Translations under genes and position numbers: made by a program
Notes under the pieces: model-generated
The model's database searches: none
What the model saw: the letters and a program-made list of their open reading frames with translations, nothing else
What the model was told of the DNA's origin: nothing
Shown: positions 1-23,556 of the stretch, in pieces
Layout: each line of letters opens with the position of its first letter
How positions within the stretch are numbered: the first letter of the stretch is position 1
Assembly: GCA_947472635.1 (NCBI GenBank)
Contig: CANJDY010000007.1
Span: forward strand, 1 to 25,591
Length of the DNA: 25,591 nt
Source: Chitinophagaceae bacterium
GTDB lineage: Bacteria > Bacteroidota > Bacteroidia > Chitinophagales > Chitinophagaceae
Direction of reading: 5' to 3'

Positions 1-438
1 GGAAATTTAGATGCTAAAAGAGACTGGGGTCATGCAAAAGATTATATAGAAGGAATGTATTTGATTTTGCAACAAGAAAAACCAGAAGACTTTGTTTTAG
101 CAACTGGAATTACAACTACTATCCGCGATTTTGTCAAAATGAGTTTTGCTGAATTGGGGATTGAATTAGGATTTAGAGGAAAGGACGAAGCTGAGGAGGC
201 ATATGTTGTGAAAAATACTGGTGAATACAAATTGGAAGAAGGAAAAGTAGTTGTTAAAGTAGATCCCAAATATTATAGACCAACTGAAGTTGATTTATTA
301 ATTGGAGATCCAACTAAAGCAATGACTCAGTTAGGTTGGAAACCTAAGTATGATTTAGCAGCATTGGTTAAAGAAATGGTAGCCAGTGATATTTCCTTGT
401 TTAAAAAGGAATTGTATATTAAACAAAGTGGATTATAA
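1..438 (+). CDS. gmd: GDP-mannose 4,6-dehydratase, 3' part only
   Basis: This is the C-terminal part of a GDP-D-mannose 4,6-dehydratase, which forms GDP-4-keto-6-deoxy-D-mannose, the precursor of GDP-L-fucose. The reading frame is open from base 1, before the first ATG at 55. It begins [20 protein letters not shown], the strongly conserved Gmd stretch near the substrate-binding region, followed by the conserved FVLATG and the late [11 protein letters not shown] segment (KYYRPTEV region). The N-terminal Rossmann nucleotide-binding half and catalytic TYE/YxxxK residues lie outside the window, so this is cut by the window edge rather than shown to be broken. The fucose synthase follows after 2 bp, the usual gmd-fcl pairing. 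Assignment is secure for the family; LegB-like GDP-GlcNAc dehydratases are related, but adjacency to fcl favours Gmd. Confidence 0.93.
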
Positions 439-440
439 TT

Positions 441-1376
441 ATGGAGCAAAATGCTAAAATATATATTGCTGGACACAGAGGAATGGTAGGTTCCGGATTA
501 GAGCGTAAATTAAGGAAAGAAGGATATAACAATATTGTTGCAAGAACTTCTAGTGAATTAGATTTAAGAAACCAGCAAGCTGTAAATGATTTTTTCAAAA
601 AAGAAAAACCAGCATATGTAATCCTAGCTGCAGCAAAAGTAGGAGGTATTCATGCCAATAATACCTATAGAGCAGAATTTATTTATGATAATTTAATGAT
701 TGAAGCCAATATTATTCATGCTGCCTATTTAAATAAGGTTACTAAATTATTGTTTTTAGGTTCTTCTTGTATATACCCTAAAATGGCTCCACAGCCGTTG
801 AAAGAAGAATACTTGTTAAGTGGATATCTAGAGCCGACTAATCAACCCTATGCCATTGCAAAAATTGCTGGTATTGAAATGTGTGATAGTTATAGAGCGC
901 AGTATGGTTGCAACTTTATTTCTGCGATGCCTACAAATTTGTATGGTACCAATGACAACTATCACCCAAAAAACTCTCACGTACTGCCTGCTTTAATTAG
1001 AAGAATTGTTTTAGCAAAAAAGAATAATGAGCACACTGTTACTATTTGGGGAACAGGAACACCAAGAAGAGAGTTTTTACATGTTGATGATTTAGCTGAT
1101 GCTTGTCATTTTTTGCTTACAAACTACAACGATAAAGGGTTAGTAAATATTGGCTGTGGTGAAGATATAAATATTAAAAATTTGGCAGAATTAGTAGCAT
1201 CAATTGTAGAATTTAAGGGTGAAATTTTATTAGATAAAACCAAACCCGATGGTTCATCTAGAAAGTTAATGGATTGTTCGAAAATAAATAATTTAGGATG
1301 GGCGCCAAGTATAAAATTACATGAAGGGATTCTTAAAACAATAAAAGAATTTAACAAAATAATTGATGAAAAATAA
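441..1376 (+). CDS. fcl: GDP-L-fucose synthase
   Basis: NADPH-dependent epimerase/reductase that converts GDP-4-keto-6-deoxy-D-mannose to GDP-L-fucose in the cytoplasm. It is an extended SDR of 311 residues, normal for Fcl/WcaG. The N-terminus carries the Rossmann motif GHRGMVGS. The LGSSCIYP motif supplies the catalytic Ser around residue 108, and YAIAK provides Tyr137 and Lys141 of the SDR dyad. A conserved [15 protein letters not shown] stretch contains the His expected to act as acid in epimerisation. It starts 2 bp after gmd, and its last 11 bases overlap the downstream dehydrogenase. Together with gmd it predicts L-fucose, or a fucose-derived residue, in the glycan. Confidence 0.95.
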
Positions 1377-2643
1377 TATCAAAATTGCAATCATAGGTTT
1401 AGGCTATGTGGGTTTGCCTCTTGCTATAGAGTTTGGGACAAAATATCAAGTATTAGGATTTGATATTGATGAAGTGAGAGTATTAGAATTAATAAATGGC
1501 ATTGACCGAACATTAGAGGCAGATATCTTTCGTATGAATCACGCCATAAAAGGTACTCAGAAATCTGGATTAACTTTTTCATGTAATCCATATGATTTAA
1601 TAAAGTACAATATTTTTATTATTACTGTTCCTACACCTATTGATCATTTTAAAAAACCAGACCTTGGTCCCTTACTAAAAGCAAGTGAAACGGTAGGTAA
1701 ATTTTTAAAAAAAGGTGATATTGTTATTTATGAATCAACTGTTTATCCAGGATGCACTGAGGAAGATTGTGTGCCAATTTTAGAAAAATACTCTTCATTA
1801 AAATTTAATCTCGATTTTTTCTGTGGTTATTCTCCAGAGCGAATTAATCCAGGTGACAAAATAAATACTTTAACTAAAATTAAAAAAGTAACTTCTGGTT
1901 CAACTGTTAATATAGCTAAGAAAATTGATGAATTGTATAAAAGTATTATAACTGCTGGTACACATTTAGCACCTAGTATTAAAGTTGCAGAAGCTAGTAA
2001 AGCAATTGAGAATGCACAACGTGATGTCAATATTTCATTTGTAAATGAATTAGCATTAATTTTTGATCGTATAGGAATAGATACACATGATGTGTTGGCT
2101 GCTGCTGGAACTAAATGGAACTTTTTGCCTTATAAACCAGGGTTGGTTGGTGGACATTGCATTGGAGTTGACCCATATTACCTTGCCTATAAAGCAGAAA
2201 GTTTAGGATATCATCCCCAAGTTATTTTGTCCGGCCGTCGTGTTAATGACACTATGGGAATGTTTGTCGCGAACAAAGTTGTTAAGTTAATGATAAATAA
2301 AGGAATAACTATAAAAGGAGCTAAGGCATTGGTCCTAGGTATAACTTTCAAAGAAAATTGCCCAGATATACGTAATTCTAAGGTTATTGATATTGTAAGA
2401 GAATTAATTCAATTTGGATTAATTCTTGATGTTTATGACCCACATGCTAACAAAGAAGCAGTAAAAAATGAATATAATTTAAATCTGTTAGATAGTATTG
2501 TAGATAATTATAATGCTGTGGTACTCGCTGTTTCACATGAGGAATTTAAAATTATTGATTTAAAAAACATAGTCAAATCAAATAGTGTAATTTTTGATAC
2601 TAAGGCATTTTTTGATCGTTCAATTGTAGATGGACGTTTATAA
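1366..2643 (+). CDS. UDP-N-acetylhexosamine 6-dehydrogenase (TviB/WbpO/WbpA type)
   Basis: NAD-dependent oxidation of UDP-GlcNAc or UDP-GalNAc at C6 to the uronic acid. The N-terminal Rossmann motif [10 protein letters not shown] is at about residues 11-20. The central part has the [11 protein letters not shown] stretch typical of the TviB/WbpO/WbpA branch, and [12 protein letters not shown] carries the catalytic Cys265. The C-terminal UDP-binding domain has [15 protein letters not shown] and a YDPHA turn. The open frame extends to a TTG at 1363, but I chose the ATG at 1366; either way it overlaps the end of fcl. Length of about 425 residues is standard. The sequence does not tell me whether the substrate is GlcNAc or GalNAc. 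The product could be a backbone uronic acid or the acceptor of the amidination module further downstream. Confidence 0.9.
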
Positions 2644-2658: not shown

Positions 2659-3675
2659 ATGAATAATCATGTTTACATAATTGCGGAAGCAGGAGTAAAT
2701 CATTGCGGAAATATTGATATCGCAATACAGTTGATTGATGAAGCAAAAAAATGTGGTGTTGATTGTATAAAGTTTCAGACATTCAAGGCAGCACAAATTG
2801 TAACAGAAATCTCGCCTAAGGCAAATTACCAGCTCAATGTTACTTCAAAGACGGAATCTCAGTTTGACATGTTAAAGAAGTTAGAATTAGATTATAATGA
2901 TTATTTGTTATTGATAAAAAAGTGTCAGGAAAACGAAATTGATTTTTTGTCAACGCCATACAATTTTGAAGATGTAGATTTTCTTATGAAACTTGGTGTA
3001 GACGGATTTAAAGTTGCTTCTGGCCAACTTACAGAATTACCTTTTCTGAAATATGCTGCTAAACAGCATAAGAAAATGATTATTTCGACAGGCATGGCAA
3101 CAATGGCAGAAGTATTCGCAGCAGTAGAAGCAATTAGAGAAACTGGTAATAATGATATTGTTGTTTTGCAGTGCACTACAAACTATCCCTCAAAAATTGA
3201 AGATACAAATTTATTTGCCATGAATAGCATTGGAATGGCTTGCAAAGTTGATGTGGGATATTCTGATCATACTGAAAACAACTATGCCTGCTTTGCTTCA
3301 GTAGCATTAGGTGCAAAAATTATTGAAAAGCATTTTACACTTGATAAAACATTTGAAGGGCCAGATCATTCATCATCACTAAATCCCAAAGAGCTTAAAG
3401 AATTAGTATATGGAATAAGGGAGGTTGAAAAAGCGCTTGGAACGGGATTGAAATTACCAACAGTGGCAGAGAAGGCTAATATGTATGGTATGAAAAGAAG
3501 CATGGTTGCATTGGAGACTTTACTAGAGGGAACAATTATAGAAGAAAAGCATATAGGTTTTAAAAGACCCTCTAATGGTTTAGGGCCAAACCTTTACGAA
3601 AATATACTTGGCAAAAAAATTGCGAAAGCCATTAAACCAGATGAGGCATTTCAATATAGTAATATTGAATGGTAA
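2659..3675 (+). CDS. NeuB/SpsE/LegI-family nonulosonate synthase
   Basis: Condenses phosphoenolpyruvate with a hexose-derived aldehyde (ManNAc or a 6-deoxy-diacetamido hexose in known members) to give a nine-carbon 2-keto acid. The N-terminal TIM barrel shows IIAEAGVNHCG, KFQTFKA, STPYNFEDV, KVASGQ, STGMA, VGYSDHT, and the PEP/metal region KHFTLDKTFEGPDH. A C-terminal SAF (antifreeze-like) domain occupies roughly residues 278-338 (KRSMVA through GLGPNLYENILGK). Length of 338 is normal. Residue choice does not separate Neu5Ac, legionaminate, pseudaminate or SpsE-type substrates. It heads a nine-gene block running to 11215; no NeuC/LegG-type epimerase is present nearby, so the aldehyde substrate is unusual or is made elsewhere. 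Confidence 0.9.
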   Translation: MNNHVYIIAEAGVNHCGNIDIAIQLIDEAKKCGVDCIKFQTFKAAQIVTEISPKANYQLNVTSKTESQFDMLKKLELDYNDYLLLIKKCQENEIDFLSTPYNFEDVDFLMKLGVDGFKVASGQLTELPFLKYAAKQHKKMIISTGMATMAEVFAAVEAIRETGNNDIVVLQCTTNYPSKIEDTNLFAMNSIGMACKVDVGYSDHTENNYACFASVALGAKIIEKHFTLDKTFEGPDHSSSLNPKELKELVYGIREVEKALGTGLKLPTVAEKANMYGMKRSMVALETLLEGTIIEEKHIGFKRPSNGLGPNLYENILGKKIAKAIKPDEAFQYSNIEW

Positions 3676-4115
3676 CCAAGAAATTGACATACATAATAAG
3701 AAAAGTTACTGATCCCAAATTTATTGAAAGCTTTGTGCTTCATGCAGGGGATTCTTTAACCTATTTTAGATATTATAAAAGCCGACCCTATGATGTTATA
3801 AAGCATCATTTAGCCACTTATCTGTTATTTATTTCTGATCAGGAAAATGCAATAGGATATGGACATTTAGAATTTGAAGCAAACAAACTTTGGTTGGGTA
3901 TTGCAGTTTCTGCAGATTACAAAGGGAAAGGATTTGGGAATTTACTTTTAGGTGAATTAATTGCAACAGCAAAAGATATCAAATGTGAACATATATTTTT
4001 ATCTGTTGATATAAATAATAAACCTGCAATTTGCTTATATGAAAAGTTTGGGTTCAAATTTTTCGAGATAAAAAATGAACTTGTTCAATTAATGAGACTT
4101 TCTTTATATGAATAA
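3669..4115 (+). CDS. GNAT-family N-acetyltransferase (SpsD/PseH-like)
   Basis: Small acetyl-CoA-dependent acetyltransferase of 148 residues. The acetyl-CoA-binding motif A is visible as VSADYKGKGFGNLLLGELI (about residues 78-96), preceded by the substrate-side strand LWLGIAV and followed by LSVDINNKPAICLYEKFGF, the usual motif B. It overlaps the NeuB-like gene by 7 bp and the next gene by 8 bp, so translation is probably coupled. In nonulosonic-acid loci such GNATs (PseH, LegH, SpsD) acetylate an amino group on the sugar before condensation. By position I infer that it acetylates the amine installed by one of the two aminotransferases in this block. The exact substrate is not readable from sequence. 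Confidence 0.85.
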   Translation: MVTKKLTYIIRKVTDPKFIESFVLHAGDSLTYFRYYKSRPYDVIKHHLATYLLFISDQENAIGYGHLEFEANKLWLGIAVSADYKGKGFGNLLLGELIATAKDIKCEHIFLSVDINNKPAICLYEKFGFKFFEIKNELVQLMRLSLYE

Positions 4116-4956
4116 ATATGTTAGCTCTTTAGCTTTTTATGGGAAAACCCCTGAGGAAATTGTAAGTATTGCAAAGGAATACAAGTTTGCAATAGAGTTT
4201 AGTTCGGGAATGCCTTATAGACCAGATATGGAGCAATTCTTTAATGAAACACAACTTAAAAAAATACTCCATAACTACTTCCCTGCACCAAAAGAGCCCT
4301 TTGTATTAAATCTTGCAAGTGCAAATGAAGCAATTCGTAATAAATCAATTAAACATTGTTTAAATGGGATTAAAATATCTGCACTAAATGGGTGCCCGTT
4401 TTTTGCTGCACATGCAGGTTTTTGTATTGACCCTAGCCCAAACGATTTAGGTAATCATTTGAAACTGGAAAATGATTTTGATGTTGATTATAATTTGGAG
4501 CTATTTTTTGAATCTCTTGGGGTATTAATTAGCCATGCAGAATCTCAAAAAGTTCAGTTTTTAATTGAAAATAATGTACTTGCATCTTTTAATTTTAAAG
4601 ATTCAATAAGTCCATTATTATGTTGTGAGAGTAAGGATATTATAAAGGTCTTTGAACATTTTAAATACAGTGATTATTTTGGCCTTTTATTAGATACTGC
4701 TCATTTGAAAGTAAGTTGTCAAACAATGAAATTAAATATAACAAAAGAATTAGAAAAAATAAGTAACTATATCAAGGCGCTACATCATAGTGATAATAAT
4801 GGTGAAATCGATAATAATTTGCCCATCAAGAATGATTATTGGTTTCTACCTCATTTAAAAAATTATGCTGTACTTCCTCAGGTGCTTGAAGTGAAAAAAA
4901 GTAGCATAAGTTCAATTATTGATCAATTACAATTATTAGAAATATATGGAAATTAA
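4108..4956 (+). CDS. Xylose-isomerase-like TIM-barrel sugar isomerase/epimerase
   Basis: Member of the sugar phosphate isomerase/epimerase (AP-endonuclease 2-like) superfamily, 282 residues. Candidate divalent-metal ligands fall at the expected strand ends: Glu154 in FLIENN, Asp196 and His199 in LLLDTAHLK, His226/His227 and Asp229 in HHSDNNG, and Glu261 in VLEVKKS. A TIM-barrel pattern of alternating strands and helices fits the rest. Members isomerise or epimerise sugars and keto-sugars. Within this block it is the best candidate to supply a 2-epimer or ketose/aldose for the NeuB-like enzyme, replacing the missing hydrolysing 2-epimerase; that role is inference. It overlaps the GNAT by 8 bp and the CBS-aminotransferase by 11 bp. 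Confidence 0.78.
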   Translation: MNKYVSSLAFYGKTPEEIVSIAKEYKFAIEFSSGMPYRPDMEQFFNETQLKKILHNYFPAPKEPFVLNLASANEAIRNKSIKHCLNGIKISALNGCPFFAAHAGFCIDPSPNDLGNHLKLENDFDVDYNLELFFESLGVLISHAESQKVQFLIENNVLASFNFKDSISPLLCCESKDIIKVFEHFKYSDYFGLLLDTAHLKVSCQTMKLNITKELEKISNYIKALHHSDNNGEIDNNLPIKNDYWFLPHLKNYAVLPQVLEVKKSSISSIIDQLQLLEIYGN

Positions 4957-6391
4957 TGATTTAACAATACACAATTTGTCTGATTTGAAAGAGGCGTTGT
5001 TACGACTAGAAAGTTCTGGTTTGGGAATCCTCTTTGTTGTAAATGATGAGCAAAAGCTAGTAGGAGTTTTAACTGATGGTGATATTAGAAGGGTATTAAT
5101 TGGAGGGGCATTAATGCATATTTCAGTGTTAGAAGTGATGAACACTAATTTCGTATCACTTCCGATTGAGACTGATAATATTCAGATACTTCACTGTATT
5201 ACTGAAAAAGTAAAGATTATTCCACTTGTTGATAAAAATAATATCTTGGTTGATTATGCATCGATCAATAAAATTCGAAAAATTACTGTAGCAGCCCCAT
5301 TATTGGATGGAAATGAATTGGCATATGTGACTGATTGTATCAAAACTAACTGGATATCATCTCAAGGTAAATATGTTAGAAAATTTGAGAATTTATTTGC
5401 CGATTATCATGAGCAAAGAGCATCGTTAGCAGTTAGTAATGGTACAGTGGCACTACATTTAGCATTAGTTGCATTGGGTATTGGAGAAGGTGATGAAGTA
5501 ATAGTTCCAGATTTAACTTTTGCTGCTTCAGTAAATGCAATAATATATACAGGGGCTACTCCTGTATTAGTTGATGTTGAAGCAGATACCTGGAATATCG
5601 ACATTGAAAAAGCTGCAAAACTGATTACTACTAAAACCCGGGCAATTATGCCGGTACACTTATTTGGTCATCCTTGCGATATGGATGCAATTTCAGATTT
5701 AGCGAATAAGCATAATCTATTGATTATTGAAGATTGTGCTGAAGCTTTAGGTAGTTTATTTCATGGAAAGCCTGTTGGTGTATTTGGTGATGTTGCAACA
5801 TTTAGTTTCTATGGCAACAAAACGATAACCACAGGAGAAGGTGGAATGGTAGTTTTTAAAGACCCTATTATTGCAGAGTATGCTTCGGTTCTTAGAGATC
5901 ATGGAATGGAAAAAACAAAACGCTATTGGCATGCATATGTTGGCTTTAATTATAGATTAACTAATATTCAGGCAGCAATTGGAGTTGCGCAATTTGAACG
6001 GTTACCGGAATTCGTTATAACTAAAAGAAAATTAGCAGCTGTTTATAATCAATGTATTGGAAAGTTACCTTATTTGAAAACTCCTGTAGAAAGAAATAAT
6101 TGTTTAAATAGTTATTGGTTATATACTTTTTTAGTTGATAAAAATGCACCCTTTACGAGAGATGAATTAATTGAATACTTAGACAGTTGTGGAATTGAAT
6201 CTAGGCCAGTATTTTATCCGTTGCATTTAATGCCCCCTTATGAATCGTTTGGAAATAAAAGCCAATTATTATCATCTTCTGATATTTCAAGTTCAGGAAT
6301 TTCATTGCCATCAGCAAGTTCCTTGTCAAATATAGAACAACTTTATATTTGCAATTGTATTGAAATTTTTTTAAATAATAAAAAACAATAA
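4946..6391 (+). CDS. Tandem-CBS / DegT-DnrJ-EryC1-StrS aminotransferase fusion
   Basis: A 481-residue fusion. Residues about 1-110 are a Bateman pair of CBS motifs: GILFVVNDEQKLVGVLTDGD with IRR, then a second repeat ending IIPLVDKNNILVDYASI. From about 112 it is a full-length (about 370 residues) PLP aminotransferase: NWISSQGKYVRKFE, AVSNGTVALHLAL, VPDLTFAASVNA, PVHLFGHPCDM, IIEDCAEALGS, and the PLP Schiff-base Lys292 in FYGNKTITTGEGG. Known members transfer an amine to keto-sugar nucleotides, mostly at C3 or C4. CBS pairs usually bind adenine nucleotides and regulate; in PtmE of the legionaminate pathway a similar CBS pair is fused to a nucleotidyltransferase. Here it is joined to an aminotransferase instead. 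Substrate unknown: either a precursor in this block or GDP-4-keto-6-deoxymannose from gmd. Confidence 0.9.
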   Translation: MEINDLTIHNLSDLKEALLRLESSGLGILFVVNDEQKLVGVLTDGDIRRVLIGGALMHISVLEVMNTNFVSLPIETDNIQILHCITEKVKIIPLVDKNNILVDYASINKIRKITVAAPLLDGNELAYVTDCIKTNWISSQGKYVRKFENLFADYHEQRASLAVSNGTVALHLALVALGIGEGDEVIVPDLTFAASVNAIIYTGATPVLVDVEADTWNIDIEKAAKLITTKTRAIMPVHLFGHPCDMDAISDLANKHNLLIIEDCAEALGSLFHGKPVGVFGDVATFSFYGNKTITTGEGGMVVFKDPIIAEYASVLRDHGMEKTKRYWHAYVGFNYRLTNIQAAIGVAQFERLPEFVITKRKLAAVYNQCIGKLPYLKTPVERNNCLNSYWLYTFLVDKNAPFTRDELIEYLDSCGIESRPVFYPLHLMPPYESFGNKSQLLSSSDISSSGISLPSASSLSNIEQLYICNCIEIFLNNKKQ

Positions 6392-6392
6392 A

Positions 6393-7280
6393 ATGATAAC
6401 GAATAACATCGAGAAACAATTAATTGAATTAGGCATTATTGATATAAATCAGGTTGAATCATATTATCCTATGACTAGGGATAACAATAATATAAGTGTA
6501 AAAAAATGCAAAAAATCTAATGTTATTTATTTGTCTGAAAATCAATATCTCGATGACTCTAGTTATGAAAATAAAAGCTTTATTGATTATTGGGGGGGGG
6601 GTAATCGTGAAACAGCTTTGAAAAATACAAGTAAAGATGATAATCGAAGGTTCGAGATGTTTTCTGATTTAATAAAAAACAAAAATTATTTAGATTATGG
6701 TACAGGGTTAGGAGGGGCAATTGATTTATTTTCAAAAATCGCAAATTCAGTTACAGGTATTGAATTGCAACAACAAATTTGTGACTATTTAAATCATTCT
6801 TTGGGATATGATATGTACCAAAGTTTAGTTAGTATGCCCAAGGATTTAAAATTTGATATTATTTCATTATTTCATGTTTTTGAGCATGTATCAACTCCTC
6901 TTGAACAACTAATACTTTTAAGGGAACGTTTAAATGAAAAAGGTAAAATAATTATTGAAGTGCCCCATGCAAAAGATGCTTTGATAAGTTTATATAACAT
7001 TGAAGAATTTAAATCATTTACTTTTTGGAGCGAACATCTAATATTGCATACACGAGAAAGCTTAGAGATTTACTTGAGAACTGCAGGGTTTAATAAAATT
7101 GTTATTTCTGCCTACCAAAGATATCCTTTAGCTAACCATCTTTATTGGTTAAGTGACAAAAAACCTTGCGGAGAAATTGAATATAATTATTTGACAAACA
7201 AAAATATTGATTCGGAATATTCAAACATTCTCAAGAGTATTGACAAGACTGATACTTTAATTGCAATCGCTGAAAAATAG
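6393..7280 (+). CDS. Class I SAM-dependent methyltransferase carrying a G10 tract
   Basis: A 295-residue methyltransferase. Motif I is YLDYGTGLGGAIDLF (SAM binding), followed by an acidic strand end in VTGIEL and the post-motif HVFEHV, IIEVPHA. The N-terminal third (about 90 residues) is an extra domain of no family I recognise. Trp67-Gly70 are encoded by a run of ten G, described separately; gain or loss of one G stops the protein within a few codons. Starts 1 bp after the CBS-aminotransferase stop. It may methylate the sugar built by the surrounding genes, either on a hydroxyl or an amino group; no substrate is readable. A 55-bp gap follows before the next gene, one of the longer gaps in the cluster. 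Confidence 0.82.
   Translation: MITNNIEKQLIELGIIDINQVESYYPMTRDNNNISVKKCKKSNVIYLSENQYLDDSSYENKSFIDYWGGGNRETALKNTSKDDNRRFEMFSDLIKNKNYLDYGTGLGGAIDLFSKIANSVTGIELQQQICDYLNHSLGYDMYQSLVSMPKDLKFDIISLFHVFEHVSTPLEQLILLRERLNEKGKIIIEVPHAKDALISLYNIEEFKSFTFWSEHLILHTRESLEIYLRTAGFNKIVISAYQRYPLANHLYWLSDKKPCGEIEYNYLTNKNIDSEYSNILKSIDKTDTLIAIAEK
6592..6601 (+). repeat. G10 homopolymer inside the methyltransferase gene (possible phase-variation tract)
   Basis: Ten consecutive G residues in a strongly AT-rich gene, encoding part of Trp67-Gly-Gly-Gly. With nine G the frame reads a few aberrant residues then TGA; with eleven G a TAA follows the tract directly. Poly-G tracts of this length in surface-glycan genes are known contingency switches in Campylobacter and Neisseria; use in Bacteroidota is an inference here. 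Confidence 0.75.
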
Positions 7281-7335
7281 TTTTCTAAAAATAGAATTAA
7301 GTTTGATTTATTAGTTAATAAAAATAGTTCATAAA

Positions 7336-8340
7336 ATGAAGTTTTTAATTATAGGGTTAGGTTCAATGGGGAAAAGGAGAATTAGGAATTTGCAATATCT
7401 TGGATATTCTAAGATATTTGGTTTCGATTTAAATGAAGATCGGAGACAAGAAGCAGTAAACAAATATGGAATTACAACTATAGAAAATTTTGACAATGTT
7501 GCTAGCTTAGAAGTTGATGTATTAATCATTTCAGTGCCCCCTGATAAGCATCATATTTATATGTTAAAATCTATTGAATTAAATAAACCATGTTTTGTTG
7601 AAGCTAGTGTTGTTGATTATTCATTTAATGAATTAATATCTTTATCTGAAAAGAACAAGGTATTTATTGCGCCATCTTCAACGATGTATTTTCATCCAGC
7701 AATAAAGAAAATAAAATCTATAATTGAAGAAAAGATTATTGGCCTCACTACTAATATTTCATACCATTCTGGGCAATATCTCCCTGATTGGCATACCTAC
7801 GAAAAAGTAAAAGATTTTTATGTGTCACAAAAGGAAACTGGCGGAGCAAGAGAAATAGTACCTTTTGAACTCACCTGGATAACAAAGATCTTTGGATTCC
7901 CAAGTTCTGTTTTTGGGTGCGTAAAAAAAACCATTGAAATTGAAGGAGCCGAATTGATTGATGATACATATGTAGGAGTTCTTGATTATGAGAGTTTTAT
8001 ATTGTCTCTAACAATCGATGTGACATCTCGAGTTGCAACCCGTAAATTGTTAATCAATGGTTCAAAGGGTCAATTGATATGGGACTGGAACAACAATTTT
8101 ATAAGTGTTTATACACCTGCAAATGGTTGGAATAATATAGAATTCGAAATGTTAGCAGCTGAAGAAGGGTATAATAAAAATATTACAGAACAGATGTATA
8201 TAGATGAGCTGTCTTGTTTTATAGCAGGAATACTTGATTGTCAGGTATATGTTAATACCTTGACTGATGATCATGCAGTTTTAAAAGTTTTATATGCAAT
8301 CGAAGAATCTTCTAATTCTAGAAAAACAATTTTACTATAG
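7336..8340 (+). CDS. Gfo/Idh/MocA-family oxidoreductase
   Basis: NAD(P)-dependent sugar oxidoreductase of 334 residues. The N-terminal Rossmann fold starts FLIIGLGSMGKRRIRNL, then VDVLIISVPPDKHH (the conserved S-x-P nucleotide-site segment). NKPCFVEASV aligns with the usual E-K-P motif, but the catalytic Lys of EKP is not obvious here. The C-terminal half is the alpha/beta substrate domain, with the segment GGAREIVPFELTWI where members often show a G-x-x-x-D-x-x-x-H-like motif; here the equivalent reads E-x-x-P-F-E-L. Missing canonical Lys/His residues suggest a divergent or altered activity. In Campylobacter legionaminate loci an oxidoreductase is part of amino-sugar precursor supply; a similar role is inferred from context only. 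Confidence 0.82.
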   Translation: MKFLIIGLGSMGKRRIRNLQYLGYSKIFGFDLNEDRRQEAVNKYGITTIENFDNVASLEVDVLIISVPPDKHHIYMLKSIELNKPCFVEASVVDYSFNELISLSEKNKVFIAPSSTMYFHPAIKKIKSIIEEKIIGLTTNISYHSGQYLPDWHTYEKVKDFYVSQKETGGAREIVPFELTWITKIFGFPSSVFGCVKKTIEIEGAELIDDTYVGVLDYESFILSLTIDVTSRVATRKLLINGSKGQLIWDWNNNFISVYTPANGWNNIEFEMLAAEEGYNKNITEQMYIDELSCFIAGILDCQVYVNTLTDDHAVLKVLYAIEESSNSRKTILL

Positions 8341-9111
8341 ATGGTTGGAATATTTATTACAGCGCGCCTTGGATCGACAAGGTTGCATAGGAAACATTTA
8401 ATTCTTACCGAAAGAAAAACAATGATTGAATGGTTGGTTTTACGTTATCAAGCAATCTTTGAAAATGAGCTACTATCTGGTGAGGTTAAAATATTTCTTA
8501 CAACCTCAGTAAAAGAAGAAAATAAAGTATTTTCAAGTTTGCTAAATAAATATGGGGTTGAAGTGTATTTTGGCGAAGACTCGAATATTCCTAAAAGGTA
8601 TTTTGATTGTGCAAAAAAGCATTTGGTTGATTATTTTATTGTAGTGGATGGAGATGATATTCTATGTTCTGCTTATGGATCTTATCAATTATATAAAAGT
8701 ATTCAAGAAAAATTGAATTACGATATTTTGAAGGTTGAGGGCTTACCTATCGGATTGAATTCATCTGCCTATAAAACTAGTTATCTTGAAGCTTGTTTAA
8801 GCAAACATCAAAACGAAAATTTAGAGGTAGGGTGGTCTAGGATATTTACAACACCAAAAACCAAACAGATTGTTCTTGGCAATTATGATATTCAGGGCAA
8901 TTTACGATTTACCCTAGATTATGAAGATGATGCTAAATTTTTTAAATCAATCATCAGCTTTTTTGGAGAAAAAATTTTAATAACAACTGATTTAGAATTA
9001 ATTGATACTGTCATAAACCAAAAATTTGACAAAATTAATGGCCATTTATCAAAAGAATATTGGGAAAACTACAGCAATACTATAAAAAAACAAACTGAAA
9101 ATAATGAGTAA
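8341..9111 (+). CDS. SpsF/NeuA-like cytidylyltransferase family protein
   Basis: Nucleotidyltransferase of the CMP-acid-sugar synthetase / SpsF family, 256 residues. The N-terminal nucleotide-binding signature reads IFITARLGSTRLHRKHL; the usual RxGSxRLPxK has His where Pro is expected. The metal-binding region is YFIVVDGDDILC (about residues 97-108). The C-terminal part has LRFTLDYEDDAKFF, typical of the family, ahead of a late helix. It begins immediately after the stop of the oxidoreductase and its last 8 bases overlap the next gene. Its likely role is CMP activation of the acid sugar made by the NeuB-like synthase, as NeuA or LegF do. It is the only cytidylyltransferase in the window, which supports that pairing. 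Confidence 0.8.
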   Translation: MVGIFITARLGSTRLHRKHLILTERKTMIEWLVLRYQAIFENELLSGEVKIFLTTSVKEENKVFSSLLNKYGVEVYFGEDSNIPKRYFDCAKKHLVDYFIVVDGDDILCSAYGSYQLYKSIQEKLNYDILKVEGLPIGLNSSAYKTSYLEACLSKHQNENLEVGWSRIFTTPKTKQIVLGNYDIQGNLRFTLDYEDDAKFFKSIISFFGEKILITTDLELIDTVINQKFDKINGHLSKEYWENYSNTIKKQTENNE

Positions 9112-10471
9112 CAAACAATTTTCTGAAGAGTTATCGAAGTACATCCCAGGTGGTGCACATACTTATAGTAGGGGAAATGATCAATATCCATTAAATGCAC
9201 CATCCATTTTAGAAAAAGGCAAAGGTGCTTATGTTTGGAGCCCTGATGGTACAAGGTTTTTAGACTATGGAATGGCATTGCGTGCAGTGACTTTAGGATA
9301 TTCTAACGATCGTGTAAATCAAGCCGCCTTTAGAGAGATTGAAAAAGGAGTTAACTTAACAAGAGCTACAACTATTGAATTGGAAGCTGCAAAAAGAATG
9401 GTAGATCTAATTCCTGGAGCAGAAATGGTAAAATTTGCTAAGAATGGATCAAATGTAACAACGGCAGCAGTTAAAATAGCTAGGGCTTATACAGGAAGAA
9501 AATATGTATGTGTACCAAGACAGCAGCCATTTTTTTCATTTGATGATTGGTTTATTGGAGTAACCCCAATTAAAAAGGGTATTCCACAAGAACATTATGC
9601 CTGCACTTTAGTATTTGATTATAATGACATTAATTCTTTGCTTTCATTATTTGATCAATATCCTCGTCAAATTGCAGCTGTAATATTGGAGCCTGCAACT
9701 ACTTTAACTCCATGTAAAGGGGACGAATGTGTTGTACAAATGGATCCAGAATTAACTTGTGCATCATGCGCTAACAATAAAAGTAATTTTTTACATCAGG
9801 TACAAAATGTTTGTAAGAAAGATGGTGCTGTTTTTATCATAGATGAAATGATAACAGGGTTTAGATGGCATTTAAGAGGCGCACAAACCTATTTTGGAAT
9901 AGAACCAGATTTGTCAACTTTTGGTAAAGGAATGGCAAATGGATTTGCAGTTGCTGCTTTGGTTGGAAAGAAAGAATTGATGGATATTGGCAGTATTGAT
10001 GAAAGAGGTAGCGAACGAACATTTTTGCTATCAACCACACATGGTGCAGAAATGCCAGGTATGGGAGCTTTTATAGAAACGGTTGCAATTTATGAAGAGC
10101 AAGACGTTGTTGGTCATTTATGGAAATATGGAAAGAAACTATTTGACGGTATTAATAAAATAAGTAAAGGTTTAGGATTGTCTGACTATTTCTATATGGA
10201 CGGATCTTATATTTCTATGAATTATGTTACGAAAAATGAAGCTGGAAATATTTCAATGGCATTTAGAACATTATTCTCACAAGAATTAATAAAAAATGGT
10301 GTACTAATGCCTTGGATTGCCCCTAGTTATGCGCACGGTGAAGAAGAGTTGCAGGCAACTCTTAAAGCCGTATTAGCAGCTTTGGAAGTTTATAAGAATG
10401 CATTGGCAAACGGGATAGAAAAATATTTGGTAGGGCCAGAAATCAAGCCTGTTTTCCGTCAATTTAATTAA
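9104..10471 (+). CDS. Class III (glutamate-1-semialdehyde aminomutase-like) aminotransferase with a four-Cys insert
   Basis: PLP enzyme of 455 residues in the GSA-aminomutase branch: IPGGAHTYSRG, FLDYGMALRAVTLGY, KFAKNGSNVTTAAVKIARAYTG, FIIDEMITGFRW, and the PLP Lys275 in STFGKGMANG. True HemL has a similar core, but this protein sits in a sugar operon and carries an insert after ILEPATTLTP containing Cys204, Cys209, Cys219 and Cys222 (C-x4-C-x9-C-x2-C), which looks like a metal-binding knuckle and is not a feature I know in HemL. It overlaps the cytidylyltransferase by 8 bp and ends directly before the SDR. Role inferred: a second amination or an amino-migration on a keto-sugar or acid sugar. 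HemL housekeeping function is unlikely by context. Confidence 0.85.
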   Translation: MSNKQFSEELSKYIPGGAHTYSRGNDQYPLNAPSILEKGKGAYVWSPDGTRFLDYGMALRAVTLGYSNDRVNQAAFREIEKGVNLTRATTIELEAAKRMVDLIPGAEMVKFAKNGSNVTTAAVKIARAYTGRKYVCVPRQQPFFSFDDWFIGVTPIKKGIPQEHYACTLVFDYNDINSLLSLFDQYPRQIAAVILEPATTLTPCKGDECVVQMDPELTCASCANNKSNFLHQVQNVCKKDGAVFIIDEMITGFRWHLRGAQTYFGIEPDLSTFGKGMANGFAVAALVGKKELMDIGSIDERGSERTFLLSTTHGAEMPGMGAFIETVAIYEEQDVVGHLWKYGKKLFDGINKISKGLGLSDYFYMDGSYISMNYVTKNEAGNISMAFRTLFSQELIKNGVLMPWIAPSYAHGEEELQATLKAVLAALEVYKNALANGIEKYLVGPEIKPVFRQFN

Positions 10472-11215
10472 ATGAAATTAAACGACAAGATAATTATAGT
10501 AACCGGTGGTAATGGATTGATTGGACAGGCAATCATTAATCACCTATTTTGTAAAGGAGCATTCGTGATCAATGTTGATATTGCAGATACAAGTGTAGTG
10601 GAATCTTCTTTTTATTATAAATGTGATATTACTGACGCAGAAGCAGTGAGAGAGATGGTTATAATGGTAGTTGAAAAATTTAAAAGAATTGATGGTTTGG
10701 TAAATAATGCCTATCCCAGAACGAAAGATTGGGGAAATGTATTTGAAAATGTAAGTTTAGACTCATGGAAACAAAATGTTGATATGCAGCTATCTAGTTG
10801 CTTTCATTTGTCTCAATTAGTTTTAGCAGAGATGAAGGCAAATAGATCAGGCTCAATAGTTAACATAGCGTCTATTTATGGAATTGTTGGGAATGATTTT
10901 TCACTATATGAAGAAGTAGAAGGAATGACATCTCCTGTGGCATATTCTGCCATTAAGGGGGGGATAATTAATTTAACAAGGTATCTCGCTTCATATTTTG
11001 GCCCTTATTCAATTAGGGTTAATTGTGTATCGCCTGGCGGAGTGTTTAATAATCAAGCTGAATCATTTGTGAGAAAGTTTGAAACAAAAGTACCTCTTCG
11101 TAGAATGGCATCGCCCAATGATATCGCCCCTTCAGTTGCTTTTTTGCTATCAGATGATGCAACCTATATTACTGGCCATAATCTAGTTGTGGATGGTGGA
11201 TGGACCGCAATTTGA
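10472..11215 (+). CDS. PtmA-like short-chain dehydrogenase/reductase
   Basis: Classical SDR of 247 residues. NAD(P) motif TGGNGLIGQAI near residues 11-21, LVNNAYPR (NNAG equivalent, here NNAY), catalytic Ser in NIASIYGI, Tyr158 and Lys162 in YSAIK, then RVNCVSPGGV and the C-terminal LVVDGGW. The NNAYPR and SIYGIV segments resemble PtmA from flagellar legionaminate loci of Campylobacter, as far as I can judge from memory. It closes the nonulosonate-like block and starts with no gap after the class III aminotransferase. Probably oxidises or reduces a sugar intermediate, possibly making the keto group that an aminotransferase of this block uses. Its last 23 bp overlap the Wzy start as chosen here. 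Confidence 0.87.
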   Translation: MKLNDKIIIVTGGNGLIGQAIINHLFCKGAFVINVDIADTSVVESSFYYKCDITDAEAVREMVIMVVEKFKRIDGLVNNAYPRTKDWGNVFENVSLDSWKQNVDMQLSSCFHLSQLVLAEMKANRSGSIVNIASIYGIVGNDFSLYEEVEGMTSPVAYSAIKGGIINLTRYLASYFGPYSIRVNCVSPGGVFNNQAESFVRKFETKVPLRRMASPNDIAPSVAFLLSDDATYITGHNLVVDGGWTAI

Positions 11216-13882: not shown

Positions 13883-13888
13883 TAGTAT

Positions 13889-15202
13889 ATGCGAACAATA
13901 TTATTATATACAAGTGTAGAAAGGAATTTTAGATCAACTTTATTAGGATATTTATATGATTTACAATTTTTAGAAAATACGAAATTAGTTGTCTTGTACG
14001 AAAAATTTTGTGACCCTATATTAGATTTACTAGAACAAAAAAAAATATTTCCTAACGTTATTGAGAAAATTTATGTTGGACAATATGATAGTTCTAGTAT
14101 AATGAATTTTACTAGTTTTAGGAAATCCAATTTATTAGCAAAAAATATAATTAATAGGTATAAGCCAAATTTAGTAATTGTGTCTAGCGATTTTCATTCA
14201 ATTTTTGAATTAATAATATGCAAATATTCAAAAAAAAGTAAAATAAATATTATTTCAATTGCTTGTAGTAATTCTACTGGCAAAATGGATTTAATGGCTA
14301 AATGGATTGAGTTATATTCTATAAATACTAAGTACAAAAAGTTTAATAAAAATATCGCTAAATACATTTTTACAATTCGAAAATATATTTCGCATTTTAT
14401 TATTCATTATTTATTTCCAGTTTTAACTGGAAATCTCCCTTTTATCGGAAATTCAAGTTATCTATTGTATAAAGGTCAAAGTGGATGTAGGAACGCTAAT
14501 TTTCAAATTGTTTTTTCAGAACAGGAAAAACAATATTTTATTCAAAGCGGCGTTCAATCTGAGAAAATTGTAATCATAAAGCATCCATATTCTAATATAT
14601 TTACAAGAAATATCATTTCTAATTTGGTTCAAAATAAAAATGATATAGATTTTATTATTCTTCATTCAGCCGAATTAATTGGTTTCACTAATGAAAAATT
14701 GACATTAATAAACTCAAATGAAAGAATACAAATTAATGTAAGAATATTAAATATTATAGTAGATATATTTCCCTTTTCAAATATTTATATTAAATTTCAT
14801 CCCAATATTACTTTAGATAACTTAAATCACCTTAAATCTAGATACCATAGTGTATCCAATAAAATCGTCTTTATAGAGAAAAGTATTCCAATTGAGCCTT
14901 TGTTGATTAATTCTAAAGTTGTTATTGATTTGCCAAGAGCAGTAAGTACTTCATTAATTATGAATACAATAATTAACCCTAATAGTACTTCTATATCTAT
15001 GAATGTTTTTAATGAATTCCAAGGTGATTATTATAAAAATAATAAAAGTGTGGAATACATAACTTCTTTGACACAGTTTGAAGATGTATTAGAAAAATTG
15101 AAAAAGATAAGTTTGAAAAAAAATAATCAAATGAATTATTGTGATAATTCATTTGATTATGACAGCATTATAAATTTTCTAATAAACAAAATGCTTATTT
15201 AA
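13889..15202 (+). CDS. Putative GT-B glycosyltransferase, possibly the nonulosonate (sialyltransferase-like) transferase
   Basis: I do not recognise a named family with certainty. It is a 437-residue soluble protein without a signal peptide. The N-terminal half opens with an alternating beta/alpha pattern (ILLYTSVERNF, NLVIVSSDFHS). The C-terminal half has FIILHSAELIGF, IYIKFHPN with His304-Pro305, and VVIDLPRAVSTSLI with Ser353-Thr354-Ser355. HP and S/T-S motifs in that order and spacing are a hallmark of several bacterial sialyltransferase families (GT38, GT52, GT80) and of related KDO/capsule GT-B enzymes. An acidic D/E-D/E-G motif is not evident. Because the locus seems to make a CMP-acid sugar, I infer that this is its transferase. 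Alternative: another capsule-type GT-B or phosphotransferase. Confidence 0.5.
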   Translation: MRTILLYTSVERNFRSTLLGYLYDLQFLENTKLVVLYEKFCDPILDLLEQKKIFPNVIEKIYVGQYDSSSIMNFTSFRKSNLLAKNIINRYKPNLVIVSSDFHSIFELIICKYSKKSKINIISIACSNSTGKMDLMAKWIELYSINTKYKKFNKNIAKYIFTIRKYISHFIIHYLFPVLTGNLPFIGNSSYLLYKGQSGCRNANFQIVFSEQEKQYFIQSGVQSEKIVIIKHPYSNIFTRNIISNLVQNKNDIDFIILHSAELIGFTNEKLTLINSNERIQINVRILNIIVDIFPFSNIYIKFHPNITLDNLNHLKSRYHSVSNKIVFIEKSIPIEPLLINSKVVIDLPRAVSTSLIMNTIINPNSTSISMNVFNEFQGDYYKNNKSVEYITSLTQFEDVLEKLKKISLKKNNQMNYCDNSFDYDSIINFLINKMLI

Positions 15203-15203
15203 T

Positions 15204-16292: not shown

Positions 16293-16318
16293 TTTTACTT
16301 GTACATTTAAAAATAAAT

Positions 16319-18028: not shown

Positions 18029-18034
18029 TTGAAT

Positions 18035-18652
18035 ATGGTTACAATTATAGATTATGGATCGGGTAATGTAAGTGCAATTGGAAACATTTATGATCAATTA
18101 AACATTAAGTATAAAATAATAGATAAAGTCATTGATTTTCCAAGAGAAACTACTAAGATAATTTTACCTGGTGTTGGTGCATTCGATGAAACTATGAAAA
18201 GTTTAAATATCTCTGGATTTAGAGAATTGCTAGATGAAAAAGTTATATCTGAAAAAATTTCTGTACTTGGAATTTGTGTTGGAATGCAGATTTTATCTGA
18301 GGGTAGCGAGGAAGGTGAATTAGAAGGATTAGGATGGGTTAAAGGTTTTGTTAAGAAATTTGATGTGACTAAATTAAATTTTCTCCCTAAAATACCTCAT
18401 TTGGGATGGAACTCTATAAATCCTACAGTCAGCTCAAAATTGTTCGATTGTGTTGACTTTGAGACTGGTTTTTACTTTATTCATTCGTACTATTTTCAAT
18501 GCATAAACAGCTCGGATATTTTAACAACATCTCAATACGGTGATACTTTTACATCTTCAATCAATCGTGAGAATATTTTTGGAACTCAATTCCATCCTGA
18601 AAAAAGTCATAAAAATGGAATTCAATTATTGAAGAACTTTTATTATTTATAA
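18035..18652 (+). CDS. hisH: HisH-like glutaminase subunit of the sugar amidination module
   Basis: Class I glutamine amidotransferase of about 205 residues that releases ammonia from glutamine. Triad visible: Cys81 in LGICVGMQ, His187 and Glu189 in FGTQFHPEKS. The N-terminal TIIDYGSGN and PGVGAFDETM are HisH signatures. The frame is open to a TTG at 18029, but ATG at 18035 gives the standard N-terminus MVTIIDYG. It lies in order with a HisF-like protein and a WbpG-type amidotransferase, so it belongs to polysaccharide amidination (compare P. aeruginosa hisH2-hisF2-wbpG and E. coli wbuY-wbuZ-wbuX) rather than histidine synthesis. It should feed ammonia through the HisF-like barrel. Confidence 0.88.
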   Translation: MVTIIDYGSGNVSAIGNIYDQLNIKYKIIDKVIDFPRETTKIILPGVGAFDETMKSLNISGFRELLDEKVISEKISVLGICVGMQILSEGSEEGELEGLGWVKGFVKKFDVTKLNFLPKIPHLGWNSINPTVSSKLFDCVDFETGFYFIHSYYFQCINSSDILTTSQYGDTFTSSINRENIFGTQFHPEKSHKNGIQLLKNFYYL

Positions 18653-18654
18653 TT

Positions 18655-19443
18655 ATGTTAAGGCCACGTATTATTCCTTGTTTATTGGTTCATAATGGAG
18701 GATTAGTTAAAACTGTCGAATTCCAAAATCCTAAATATGTTGGTGATCCTATAAATGCAGTAAAAATATTTAATGAAAAAGAGGTTGATGAGTTAATTGT
18801 TCTAGATATTGACGCAACAAAAAACAAAAATGGCCCCGATTTTGATTTAATAAGAAAACTTGCTATTGAGTGTAGAATGCCTTTTTGTTATGGTGGTGGA
18901 GTAACAAATGTTGAACAAGCTAAGAAGATAATAAATTTAGGTGCTGAGAAGGTTGCAATTAGTAGTGCTGCAGTAACTAATTTACGTTTGTTAGAAGAAA
19001 TTGGGACGAAAGTTGGTCAACAAAGTATTGTAGTTGTTTTAGATGTTAGAAAAAAAACAAAATTGTTGGGAACTTCTGTATATGAGATTTATATTAATAA
19101 TGGTAAAACTAAATTAAATTTAAATTTTGTCGATTTCATTCATCAACTTAATGGTATTGGCATTGGAGAACTCGTTTTAAATTCAATTGATAACGATGGT
19201 CTTATGAAGGGATATGATTTGGAATTGATTGATTTAGCAAGAAAAACAACTGATTTCCCTTTAACAGCTCTAGGAGGTGCTGGTTCATTAAATGATTTAA
19301 AAGATTTGTTTGATCGTTTCGGAATTATCGGAGCTGCAGCGGGAAGTTTTTTTGTTTTTAAAGGAAAATTTAGAGCAGTACTTATAAGTTATCCATCTAA
19401 AAATGATATTCGTTTAATCACACAAAATACTTTTAAAAAGTAA
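18655..19443 (+). CDS. hisF: HisF-like ammonia-channel subunit lacking the cyclase Asp11
   Basis: TIM-barrel protein of 262 residues. Two half-barrel repeats are visible (VDELIVLDIDAT with MPFCYGGGV; GELVLNSIDNDG with FPLTALGGAG). In true HisF, Asp11 and Asp130 catalyse the imidazole-forming cyclisation. Here the N-terminus reads RIIPCLLVHNGG, so position 11 is Leu, whereas Asp130 is kept in VVLDVRK. Phosphate-binding glycine loops remain. Loss of Asp11 argues against a histidine role and fits the HisF2/WbuZ type, which conducts ammonia from HisH to the sugar amidotransferase. It starts 2 bp after hisH. Gene symbol reflects family only. Confidence 0.88.
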   Translation: MLRPRIIPCLLVHNGGLVKTVEFQNPKYVGDPINAVKIFNEKEVDELIVLDIDATKNKNGPDFDLIRKLAIECRMPFCYGGGVTNVEQAKKIINLGAEKVAISSAAVTNLRLLEEIGTKVGQQSIVVVLDVRKKTKLLGTSVYEIYINNGKTKLNLNFVDFIHQLNGIGIGELVLNSIDNDGLMKGYDLELIDLARKTTDFPLTALGGAGSLNDLKDLFDRFGIIGAAAGSFFVFKGKFRAVLISYPSKNDIRLITQNTFKK

Positions 19444-19450
19444 ATTTATT

Positions 19451-20644: not shown

Positions 20645-20657
20645 AAATAAATAATAA

Positions 20658-21797: not shown

Positions 21798-22406
21798 ATG
21801 CGAGTAATAGGAAGCGGTGGTCACGCTAAAGTTATAGTTGCATCATTGTTAAATAATGGTTGCCAAATTGAAAATATTTTTGATGAAGATGTTTCTAAGA
21901 ATGGCAAAAAATTATTAAACATAGATATTTTATCGCCAATTCCTAATTTATTAAATACTCCTCATGTTATTGGAATTGGTAATAACAAAATAAGAGAGAT
22001 GATTAGCCTAAAATATAAACAAATTAATTGGGGTAAATTAATTGATATTAATTCTATAATATCAATAGATGTTATTATTTTAGAAGGTACTGTCATTCTC
22101 TCGGGAAGTATAGTCCAAGTAGGAACAACAATTGGTCGACATTGTATTTTGAACACAAAATCTTCTGTTGATCATGATTGTATAATTCATGACTTTGTTC
22201 ATATTTCACCAGGAGTAACTTTGTGTGGTAATGTTGAAGTTAATATAGGCACACATATCGGCGCTGGTGCTGTTGTTATACCTAATACAAAGATTGGTAA
22301 ATGGTGCATAATAGGTGCAGGTTCTGTAATTACTAATGATATACCAGATTTTTCATTAGTAGTTGGGGTTCCGGGAAGAGTAATTAAAAATTTAAATAAT
22401 GTCTAA
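21798..22406 (+). CDS. pglD: PglD/NeuD-like sugar O/N-acyltransferase
   Basis: Left-handed beta-helix acetyltransferase of 202 residues. The N-terminal Rossmann-like lid has RVIGSGGHAKVIVASL, and the hexapeptide repeats run from about residue 90 to 190 (VILSGSIVQVGTTIG, CGNVEVNIGTHIGAGAVVIP, GKWCIIGAGSVI). His126 in SSVDHDCII aligns with the catalytic His of PglD. It ends VVGVPGRVIK, usual for the family. It overlaps the PglE-like gene by 8 bp. In this position it most likely N-acetylates UDP-4-amino-4,6-dideoxy-GlcNAc to UDP-diNAc-bacillosamine. NeuD-type O-acetylation of sialic acid is the alternative, but the PglE/PglC neighbours favour PglD. Confidence 0.87.
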   Translation: MRVIGSGGHAKVIVASLLNNGCQIENIFDEDVSKNGKKLLNIDILSPIPNLLNTPHVIGIGNNKIREMISLKYKQINWGKLIDINSIISIDVIILEGTVILSGSIVQVGTTIGRHCILNTKSSVDHDCIIHDFVHISPGVTLCGNVEVNIGTHIGAGAVVIPNTKIGKWCIIGAGSVITNDIPDFSLVVGVPGRVIKNLNNV

Positions 22407-23553: not shown

Positions 23554-23556
23554 CTT

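Follow-up and report, generated by a model that had tools for sequence, protein, structure and literature searches.

In this study, which was based on a 25,591-nucleotide stretch of contig CANJDY010000007.1 from a Chitinophagaceae bacterium (assembly GCA_947472635.1; the whole stretch is hereafter called the window) and on comparative genomics of its relatives, we propose that the nine-gene block at positions 2659-11215, together with the upstream gmd, forms a nonulosonic-acid operon made up of two adjoining cassettes, the first of which would run from guanosine diphosphate (GDP)-mannose through a candidate hydrolase to NeuB. We assign this reading a probability of roughly 0.6. Cassette 1 would consist of gmd, a DegT-type aminotransferase with a CBS domain (CBS-DegT), a GNAT acyltransferase, a xylose-isomerase/endonuclease-IV-like barrel that is referred to as XI, and neuB. 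Gmd would convert GDP-mannose to GDP-4-keto-6-deoxymannose, which CBS-DegT is predicted to convert to GDP-perosamine (the sugar being 4-amino-4,6-dideoxy-D-mannose), and the GNAT would then form N-acyl-GDP-perosamine. XI would split GDP from the N-acyl-perosamine, which would give an endonuclease-IV-like metal site a novel function. NeuB would then condense the released sugar with phosphoenolpyruvate (PEP) to 7-acylamido-3,7,9-trideoxy-D-glycero-D-galacto-non-2-ulosonic acid, the counterpart of legionaminic acid in which C5 carries oxygen instead of nitrogen. The stereochemistry of perosamine and of legionaminate is the basis of the predicted configuration. Because the sugar would already be manno-configured, a 2-epimerase (NeuC/LegG) would be needless. 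Further on, an SpsF-like enzyme would convert the nonulosonate to its cytidine monophosphate (CMP) sugar, and a short-chain dehydrogenase/reductase (SDR) and a class III aminotransferase would oxidise and then aminate a hydroxyl, most likely that at C8. The wider claim, i.e., a GDP-mannose/GDP-perosamine supply line across about a dozen phyla, a new class of hydrolase and a nonulosonate with nitrogen at C7 and oxygen at C5 that is aminated at C8 in this bacterium, is put forward tentatively, with odds slightly short of even.

A preliminary description of this DNA, which was made from the letters and the open reading frames, had reported a contiguous run of nine genes, and the run is real: all nine lie on one strand at the positions listed in Table 1, with intergenic spacings of -7, -8, -11, +1, +55, 0, -8 and 0 bases. 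The families that it had named were confirmed by profile searches, the SDR as no more than PtmA-like (FlagModPtmA 145.8 bits, cut-off 350). It had also seen no nucleotide-sugar dehydratase or hydrolase in the window apart from gmd. None was found by us either, as NeuC/LegG, PseG and PseB/LegB/CapD had no above-cut-off match among the 27 window frames in a scan with NCBIfam profiles, but gmd is represented only by its C-terminal 145 residues. The gene is truncated by the left edge of the window, rather than demonstrably broken, and may also serve GDP-fucose synthesis, since fcl adjoins it. The window belongs to a locus for surface polysaccharide, and the nearest sequences to its NeuB in a 100-row NeuB tree are those of Chitinophagaceae and Pedobacter.

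The search for the same gene set in other genomes, which had been suggested as a check, was baited with XI, the most distinctive protein. A relative of XI is encoded in 139 genomes, the best 80 of which were retained; their loci (designated by L numbers) were found by two peptide patterns spanning H55 and H102. They belong to about a dozen phyla, across which a core recurs that comprises neuB, an acyltransferase (GNAT or PglD-like), XI, a DegT aminotransferase and a PseF-like CMP transferase. Of the 80 loci, 74 have neuB no farther than 6 kb from XI, while DegT is that close in 66 and the PseF-like gene in 61, with some of the remaining loci being contig ends; these counts were obtained by blastp with single reference proteins, which is less sensitive than profiles. 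The PseF-like CMP transferases of the two loci that were scanned scored 148 and 173 bits, below the PseF cut-off of 206. Genome-wide pathway checks were made in 44 relatives' genomes that we picked from the 80 loci, mostly those with longer stretches and including phyla beyond Bacteroidota, and in all 44 the distance between XI and NeuB was at most 2.7 kb.

The most striking feature of these loci is what their NeuB lacks as a neighbour. No match to PF02350 (NeuC/LegG/WecB-type) or PseG was present within 5 kb of the 44 XI-linked NeuBs, compared with 15 of 40 other NeuBs (p = 3e-6), and within 10 kb the counts were 4/44 and 17/40. The other NeuBs are all of the remaining NeuB matches in the same 44 genomes, for some of which the same XI is a few kb away. 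Matches of PseG and NeuB below 100 bits, as well as two gmd and two PF02350 matches below the cut-offs, were dropped before the 5-kb counts, and the genome searches were limited to E 1e-80 for gmd and E 1e-40 for PF02719. PF02719 was found within 5 kb of one of the 44 XI-linked NeuBs, and in the 80 loci the PseG, PF02350-type and CapD reference proteins each matched within 6 kb of XI in a single locus. The preliminary description had noted a NeuB without an adjoining hydrolysing 2-epimerase or dehydratase of the uridine diphosphate (UDP)-N-acetylglucosamine (GlcNAc) type; this holds for the window, and the contrast of 0/44 with 15/40 indicates that the absence of the hydrolase belongs to the whole class of XI-linked NeuBs.

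By its nearest solved relative, the window CBS-DegT is of the GDP-perosamine-synthase type. Perosamine synthase (3dr7/3bn1) scored 381 bits and the sugar aminotransferase 7b0m 300 bits, while all other structures scored at most 219 bits, among them 1o61 with 205 and 2fn6 with 141 (1o61/4ztc and 2fn6, named as aminotransferases in the PDB table, are taken to be PglE and PseC, respectively). The other DegT of the window, which served as a control, matched 1o61 best at 358 bits and perosamine synthase at 221. Moreover, all 66 DegTs near XI were closer to CBS-DegT than to this second DegT, more than 1.3-fold in 61 of them; in the Lysinibacillus locus L074, DegT also had its best match in perosamine synthase, but by a narrow margin (299 bits vs 289 for 7b0m). 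The natural partner dehydratase of such an aminotransferase is gmd. A true gmd, above the TIGR01472 cut-off, lies in or beside the core in L003, L012, L014, L033 and L074; DegT and gmd are adjacent inside the core in L014, L033, L074 and L097; and in L097 (genome G424) gmd is 1.1 kb from XI. Additionally, a gmd-like frame of more than 35% identity is present in 19/80 loci, and gmd was found within 5 kb of 11/44 XI-linked NeuBs compared with 3/40 other NeuBs (p = 0.04). Genome-wide, gmd scored above the cut-off in 39/44 XI genomes and in 187/294 XI-free Bacteroidota (p = 9e-4, the groups being unmatched by phylum; 189/296 for the Bacteroidota background overall), which by itself is modest and weak evidence. 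In one relative, the acyltransferase had its best match in perosamine N-acetyltransferase (125 bits), in a tie with a pilin glycosylation enzyme (124 bits). The formyltransferase of L074 was considered as a perosamine formyltransferase and found to be unsupported, its nearest solved relatives being enzymes of the purine pathway.

Some loci deviate from this pattern. In L005, L010 and L011, an SDR follows XI and DegT is absent within 6 kb. The genomes of L053, L054 and L068 (titled Pelagibacteraceae and Planctomycetes) had no gmd at E 1e-80 and their DegT is more distant; in L053 and L068 a GalE-like extended SDR adjoins DegT. These three loci might possibly use another entry sugar.

Both the profile match and the catalytic residues identify the predicted product of the window neuB as a NeuB-type nonulosonate synthase. 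Counterparts of E25, K53, Q55, K129, H215, E234, H236, D247 and R314 of NmeNeuB are kept, those of the metal and PEP sites among them, and nine of the 13 ligand-site residues in the list given by PMC6795526 are identical, with N74, F112, N184 and F288 differing by alignment. A contrast is seen at the position of NmeNeuB Glu134. None of the 74 XI-linked rows, including the window with its Gln123, has Glu there (Gln 41, Asp 22, His 9, Ser 1, Met 1), whereas Glu was found in 7/7 LegG-linked NeuBs and in 5/8 PseG-linked ones, the other three having Asp; 11 unassigned rows (5 Glu, 6 Asp) stand outside this contrast. The residue, which is not a known defining feature, appears to mark a subclass and does not exclude its members from the NeuB family, and a residue other than Glu could be usable as a sequence marker for the XI-linked class. 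In the NeuB tree, XI-linked rows fall mostly into two large groups of 53 and 14 rows with no LegG- or PseG-linked members inside; among the small outliers, one joins a PseG-linked row and L065 is placed among unassigned synthases. The linkage label needs four changes on this tree compared with a mean of 23.3 after shuffling.

The predicted hydrolase role of XI is suggested by its putative metal site and its partners. Residues H55, H102, E154, D196, H199, H226, D235 and E261 are identical in 81/81 rows, although the invariance of H55 and H102 was partly selected by the search patterns; the same eight are kept in the window and in 120 homologues that were found without those patterns, with one gap at E261. 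When XI, whose AlphaFold model has a predicted local distance difference test (pLDDT) score of 89, was compared with the nine zinc ligands of endonuclease IV (Nfo), seven aligned positions matched, H55 corresponded by motif and H231 was replaced by Asn237, in a weak alignment (hhalign probability 2.9%). H102, H199 and D235 align to H109, H182 and D229 of endonuclease IV, while UlaE of Escherichia coli, also weakly aligned, has Asp, Asn and Phe. Foldseek found endonuclease IV at rank 12 (E 4e-10), and it was absent among the 50 VIA-align matches listed for XI; no usable alignment with YcjR was obtained, and XI had no match in the viral collection. In some relatives XI is fused to the GNAT, which resembles the PseG-GNAT fusions, where the two parts come in the opposite order. 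Taken together, XI seems to fit the role of the missing hydrolase better than that of an isomerase, even though its fold is nearer to epimerases.

Cassette 2 consists of the Gfo/Idh/MocA oxidoreductase, the SpsF-like gene, the class III aminotransferase and the SDR, plus the methyltransferase. Because its genes occur in a minority of the 80 XI loci (class III aminotransferase in seven clearly and one weakly, SDR in 12, Gfo in five, SpsF-like in one), it appears to be an add-on; relatives of the methyltransferase are present in several loci, e.g., L001, L032, L039, L050 and L060. The available XI loci of the cultured carriers Flavobacterium taihuense (L004) and Algoriphagus (L007, L008) are without cassette 2. 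The only clear relative of the SpsF-like gene is in L002 (247 bits; L054 has 27 bits), where Gfo is also 61% identical. No PseF or NeuA homologue was found in the window, and the SpsF-like gene, which matches PDB entry 6oew at E 4e-7, scored against no PseF model. The best PseF match in the genome of L002 reached just 42 bits, compared with 101-172 bits in the six other genomes that combine XI with the class III aminotransferase, so the SpsF-like enzyme is most likely the one that makes the CMP sugar here.

The same cassette is present in L093, a locus in a genome from the family of Flavobacterium taihuense (Gfo 54%, SpsF 43%, class III aminotransferase 58% and SDR 57% identity). There it follows a legionaminate-type set with LegC (525 bits, cut-off 420), a NeuD-type acetyltransferase (206 > 161), NeuB (471 > 400) and NeuC (365 > 236). 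Two further proteins of this set fall short of their cut-offs: an FnlA/PseB-like dehydratase with 85 and 68 bits, by a wide margin, and a sugar-1-phosphate nucleotidyltransferase-like protein with 135 bits. Cassette 2 is thus separable and stands behind two different front halves, the second of them in one genome, and its position behind a legionaminate-type set makes it unlikely to make the NeuB substrate. The products of both front halves would have in common a hydroxyl at C4, nitrogen at C7 and a hydroxyl at C8. According to PMC12053666, EpaA (CTP_transf_3 and aldo-keto reductase) and EpaB (an SDR) turn pseudaminic acid into its 8-epimer, and an 8-amino nonulosonate from Flexibacter maritimus is described in part of PMC3210612. 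Together with the shared hydroxyl, these precedents favour C8 as the site. By this analogy the SDR could oxidise C8 and the class III enzyme aminate it, an assignment that we hold somewhat doubtful. Comparison of the window SDR with phage records yielded no information, the matches listed being at most 34% identical. The class III aminotransferase was rejected as a marker of nonulosonate loci, as it also occurs on two rhizobial plasmids that carry no neuB label. On these plasmids it is accompanied by a glucose-1-phosphate cytidylyltransferase, an SDR or NAD(P)-dependent oxidoreductase and a methyltransferase, contexts in which it looks like a broad sugar aminotransferase; the window SpsF-like protein had no match on plasmids.

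Several observations weigh against the proposed route from GDP-mannose. Comparison of the whole fold ranks sugar 3-epimerases and isomerases first for XI, its top sequence-profile match is the epimerase-like 3wqo, and gmd is unlinked to XI in most of the 44 genomes. Moreover, according to the part of PMC6795526 that treats the residue, Arg314 of NmeNeuB helps to place the N-acetyl group of N-acetylmannosamine, and its counterpart is kept in 74/74 XI-linked rows; given this role, its conservation argues mildly against a substrate with a hydroxyl at C2. The fold and profile matches would suit an XI that is a true isomerase or epimerase, with the NeuB substrate coming from a simple sugar or with XI acting as a C2-epimerase of a free 2,4-diamino sugar, and no nucleoside diphosphate (NDP)-sugar hydrolase involved. 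We regard this as unlikely, because H102, H199 and D235 are as in endonuclease IV and unlike UlaE (in the weak alignment), because the GNAT is fused to XI in some relatives as it is to PseG, and because an aminotransferase of the NDP-sugar type in the core implies that the nucleotide has to be removed, for which no other core gene remains. The route that the preliminary description had drawn, i.e., isomerisation, redox and two transaminations of a simpler sugar, is disfavoured by the perosamine-type DegT, its gmd partner, the better fit of XI as a hydrolase and the separable cassette 2. Its broader suggestion was a new amino sugar or a new route to a known one; the new amino sugar stays a live reading, but on different grounds.

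Gmd, fcl and DegT might instead serve other residues of the polysaccharide by making GDP-fucose or GDP-perosamine, with a conventional NeuB substrate coming from unlinked genes. Indeed, fcl directly follows gmd, and of the 44 XI genomes 28 have PF02350 and 36 a CapD-type gene at some place in the genome. Nevertheless, 16 of the 44 are without any PF02350 match and just eight have a PseG match above 100 bits, while neuB, XI and DegT have been kept together in many phyla and DegT adjoins gmd inside the core in the four loci named above, which makes such a division of labour rather improbable. It is distinctly improbable that a legionaminic- or pseudaminic-type pathway had its hydrolase alone swapped, with a 2,4-diamino substrate derived from UDP- or GDP-GlcNAc and a DegT that changed its substrate. 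Such a swap would agree with a NeuB above the NeuB_NnaB cut-off and with the Arg314 counterpart in every XI-linked row, but its dehydratase is nearly always missing from the neighbourhood (CapD in 1/80 loci, PF02719 in 1/44) and the one inside the core is a true gmd.

The proposed operon is followed by matches to an O-antigen ligase/polymerase-type protein, a flippase-type protein and glycosyltransferases, then by an amidation set and finally by an acetyltransferase/aminotransferase/sugar-phosphate-transferase trio (Table 1). The weak PF07388 match of one of these frames, which had no NCBIfam match, would suit a user of a CMP-nonulosonate. The HisH/HisF2/WbuX set could possibly decorate the nonulosonate or another sugar. 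HisF/HisH genes similar to those of the window were also seen in L006, L033, L036, L043, L045 and L053, and their recurrence in XI loci suggests that the amidated residue may be the nonulosonate. The trio resembles the set for a first sugar of the diacetamidobacillosamine type, and no matching dehydratase is present in the window. The G+C content is 21-25% across the polymerase, flippase and transferase genes (11000-18000) and 28-35% elsewhere in the window, as if this stretch were of different origin. The two minus-strand frames at 24158-24913 and 25111-25398 face the operon.

Table 1. Features of the window, with positions in the 25,591-nucleotide stretch and the profile or structural match of each.
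Feature	Position	Strand	Match
gmd, C-terminal part; GDP-mannose 4,6-dehydratase, proposed step 1	1..438	+	TIGR01472 positions 217-340, 168.9 bits over 145 aa
fcl, GDP-L-fucose synthase type; probably separate sugar	441..1376	+	NF047922 482 bits, just below cut-off 500
TviB-like nucleotide-sugar dehydrogenase; probably separate sugar	1363..2643	+	NF011729 532 bits, cut-off 592; TIGR03026 above cut-off
neuB, predicted PEP-condensing nonulosonate synthase	2659..3675	+	PF03102 307 bits; TIGR03569 413.7 bits, cut-off 399.65
GNAT N-acyltransferase, proposed 4-amino acylation	3669..4115	+	PF00583 57 bits
XI, xylose-isomerase/endonuclease-IV-like barrel (AP_endonuc_2), proposed GDP-sugar hydrolase	4108..4956	+	PF01261 48 bits
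CBS-DegT aminotransferase, GDP-perosamine-synthase type, proposed step 2	4946..6391	+	3dr7/3bn1 381 bits
Methyltransferase (Methyltransf_23), putative decoration	6393..7280	+	Pfam family match
Gfo/Idh/MocA oxidoreductase, cassette 2	7336..8340	+	PF01408 37 bits
SpsF-like cytidylyltransferase, proposed CMP-nonulosonate synthetase	8341..9111	+	PF02348 (CTP_transf_3) 23.8 bits, cut-off 22.6
Class III (GSAM-like) aminotransferase, cassette 2, proposed side-chain amination	9104..10471	+	NF004856 631 bits, cut-off 486
SDR oxidoreductase, cassette 2, proposed side-chain oxidation	10472..11215	+	PF13561 157 bits; NF006619 249.8 bits, cut-off 255
Possible nonulosonate transferase	13889..15202	+	PF07388 (alpha-2,8-polysialyltransferase) 20.7 bits, E 3e-4, below cut-off 23.3
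HisH, AglZ/HisF2 and WbuX amidation (acetamidino-type) genes, with a GT4-type gene between	18029..21791	+	NF038364 355.8 bits, cut-off 310; TIGR03573 297.8 bits, cut-off 203
NeuD/PglD-type acetyltransferase, LegC/PglE-type aminotransferase (second DegT), polyprenyl-phosphate sugar transferase	21798..24156		NCBIfam profiles
DUF218/ElyC-like frame	24158..24913	-	
HipA_C match in a 95-aa frame	25111..25398	-	31.3 bits, cut-off 30.5

Surface nonulosonates are commonly predicted from neuB together with LegB/PseB- and LegG/PseG-type markers (compare parts of PMC7371886). Genomes of the XI type could be misread as makers of neuraminate or legionaminate, or as incomplete, because their neuB stands without the usual hydrolases beside it. 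If the proposed route is true, the entry sugar, the class of hydrolase and the predicted nonulosonate would all be new, and the route would explain neuB genes without a visible substrate supply in environmental Bacteroidota and other phyla. No report of a route from GDP-mannose to a nonulosonate was found in the open-access literature, which was searched by terms other than the chemical name of the predicted sugar.

The proposed pathway has the same six-step order as that of CMP-pseudaminate (PseB-PseC-PseH-PseG-PseI-PseF), i.e., 4,6-dehydratase, aminotransferase, GNAT, hydrolase, NeuB-family synthase and CMP transferase, and in both systems the protein in the place of the hydrolase occurs in GNAT fusions. 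It differs in having gmd as the dehydratase, a DegT of the perosamine-synthase type and an AP_endonuc_2 barrel instead of PseG. With the synthesis of GDP-perosamine (gmd, 3dr7/3bn1 and the N-acetyltransferase 4ea7, to which one relative's acyltransferase is nearest, though tied) it shares gmd and the type of DegT, but it differs in their linkage to NeuB and XI and in the CBS domain of the DegT. Flexibacter maritimus is a member of Bacteroidota. The 8-amino-3,5,7,8,9-pentadeoxynonulosonate of its O-polysaccharide, as described in part of PMC3210612, has the C8 amino group that is proposed here and, unlike the predicted sugar, nitrogen at C5; this comparison is one of sugars, not of genes. The EpaA/EpaB system of Acinetobacter prophages, in the relevant part of PMC12053666, similarly brings a CTP_transf_3 domain, an oxidoreductase and an SDR to C8 of a nonulosonate, whereas here a Gfo/Idh protein takes the place of the aldo-keto reductase and the class III aminotransferase is extra. 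The CMP-legionaminate routes share the NeuB-type synthase; in the part of PMC7439481 that compares them, the Campylobacter route uses GDP-linked intermediates, as is proposed here, and that of Bacillus subtilis (sps) an SpsF-type cytidylyltransferase, as here, but both start from GlcNAc with their own dehydratase, aminotransferase and hydrolase, while our route would start from mannose with no LegG/NeuC. XI shares its fold with the barrels of endonuclease IV and of tagatose 3-epimerase/UlaE and carries residues of the ligand type at seven aligned zinc-ligand positions of Nfo and, by motif, at H55, although the sequence match is weak and the fold scores favour the epimerases; the tagatose 3-epimerase type is characterised by this fold together with a one-metal Glu-Asp-His-Glu site. 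Set beside these systems, the block is most aptly viewed as a variant form of nonulosonate biosynthesis that would have a new entry sugar and a candidate new family of hydrolases.

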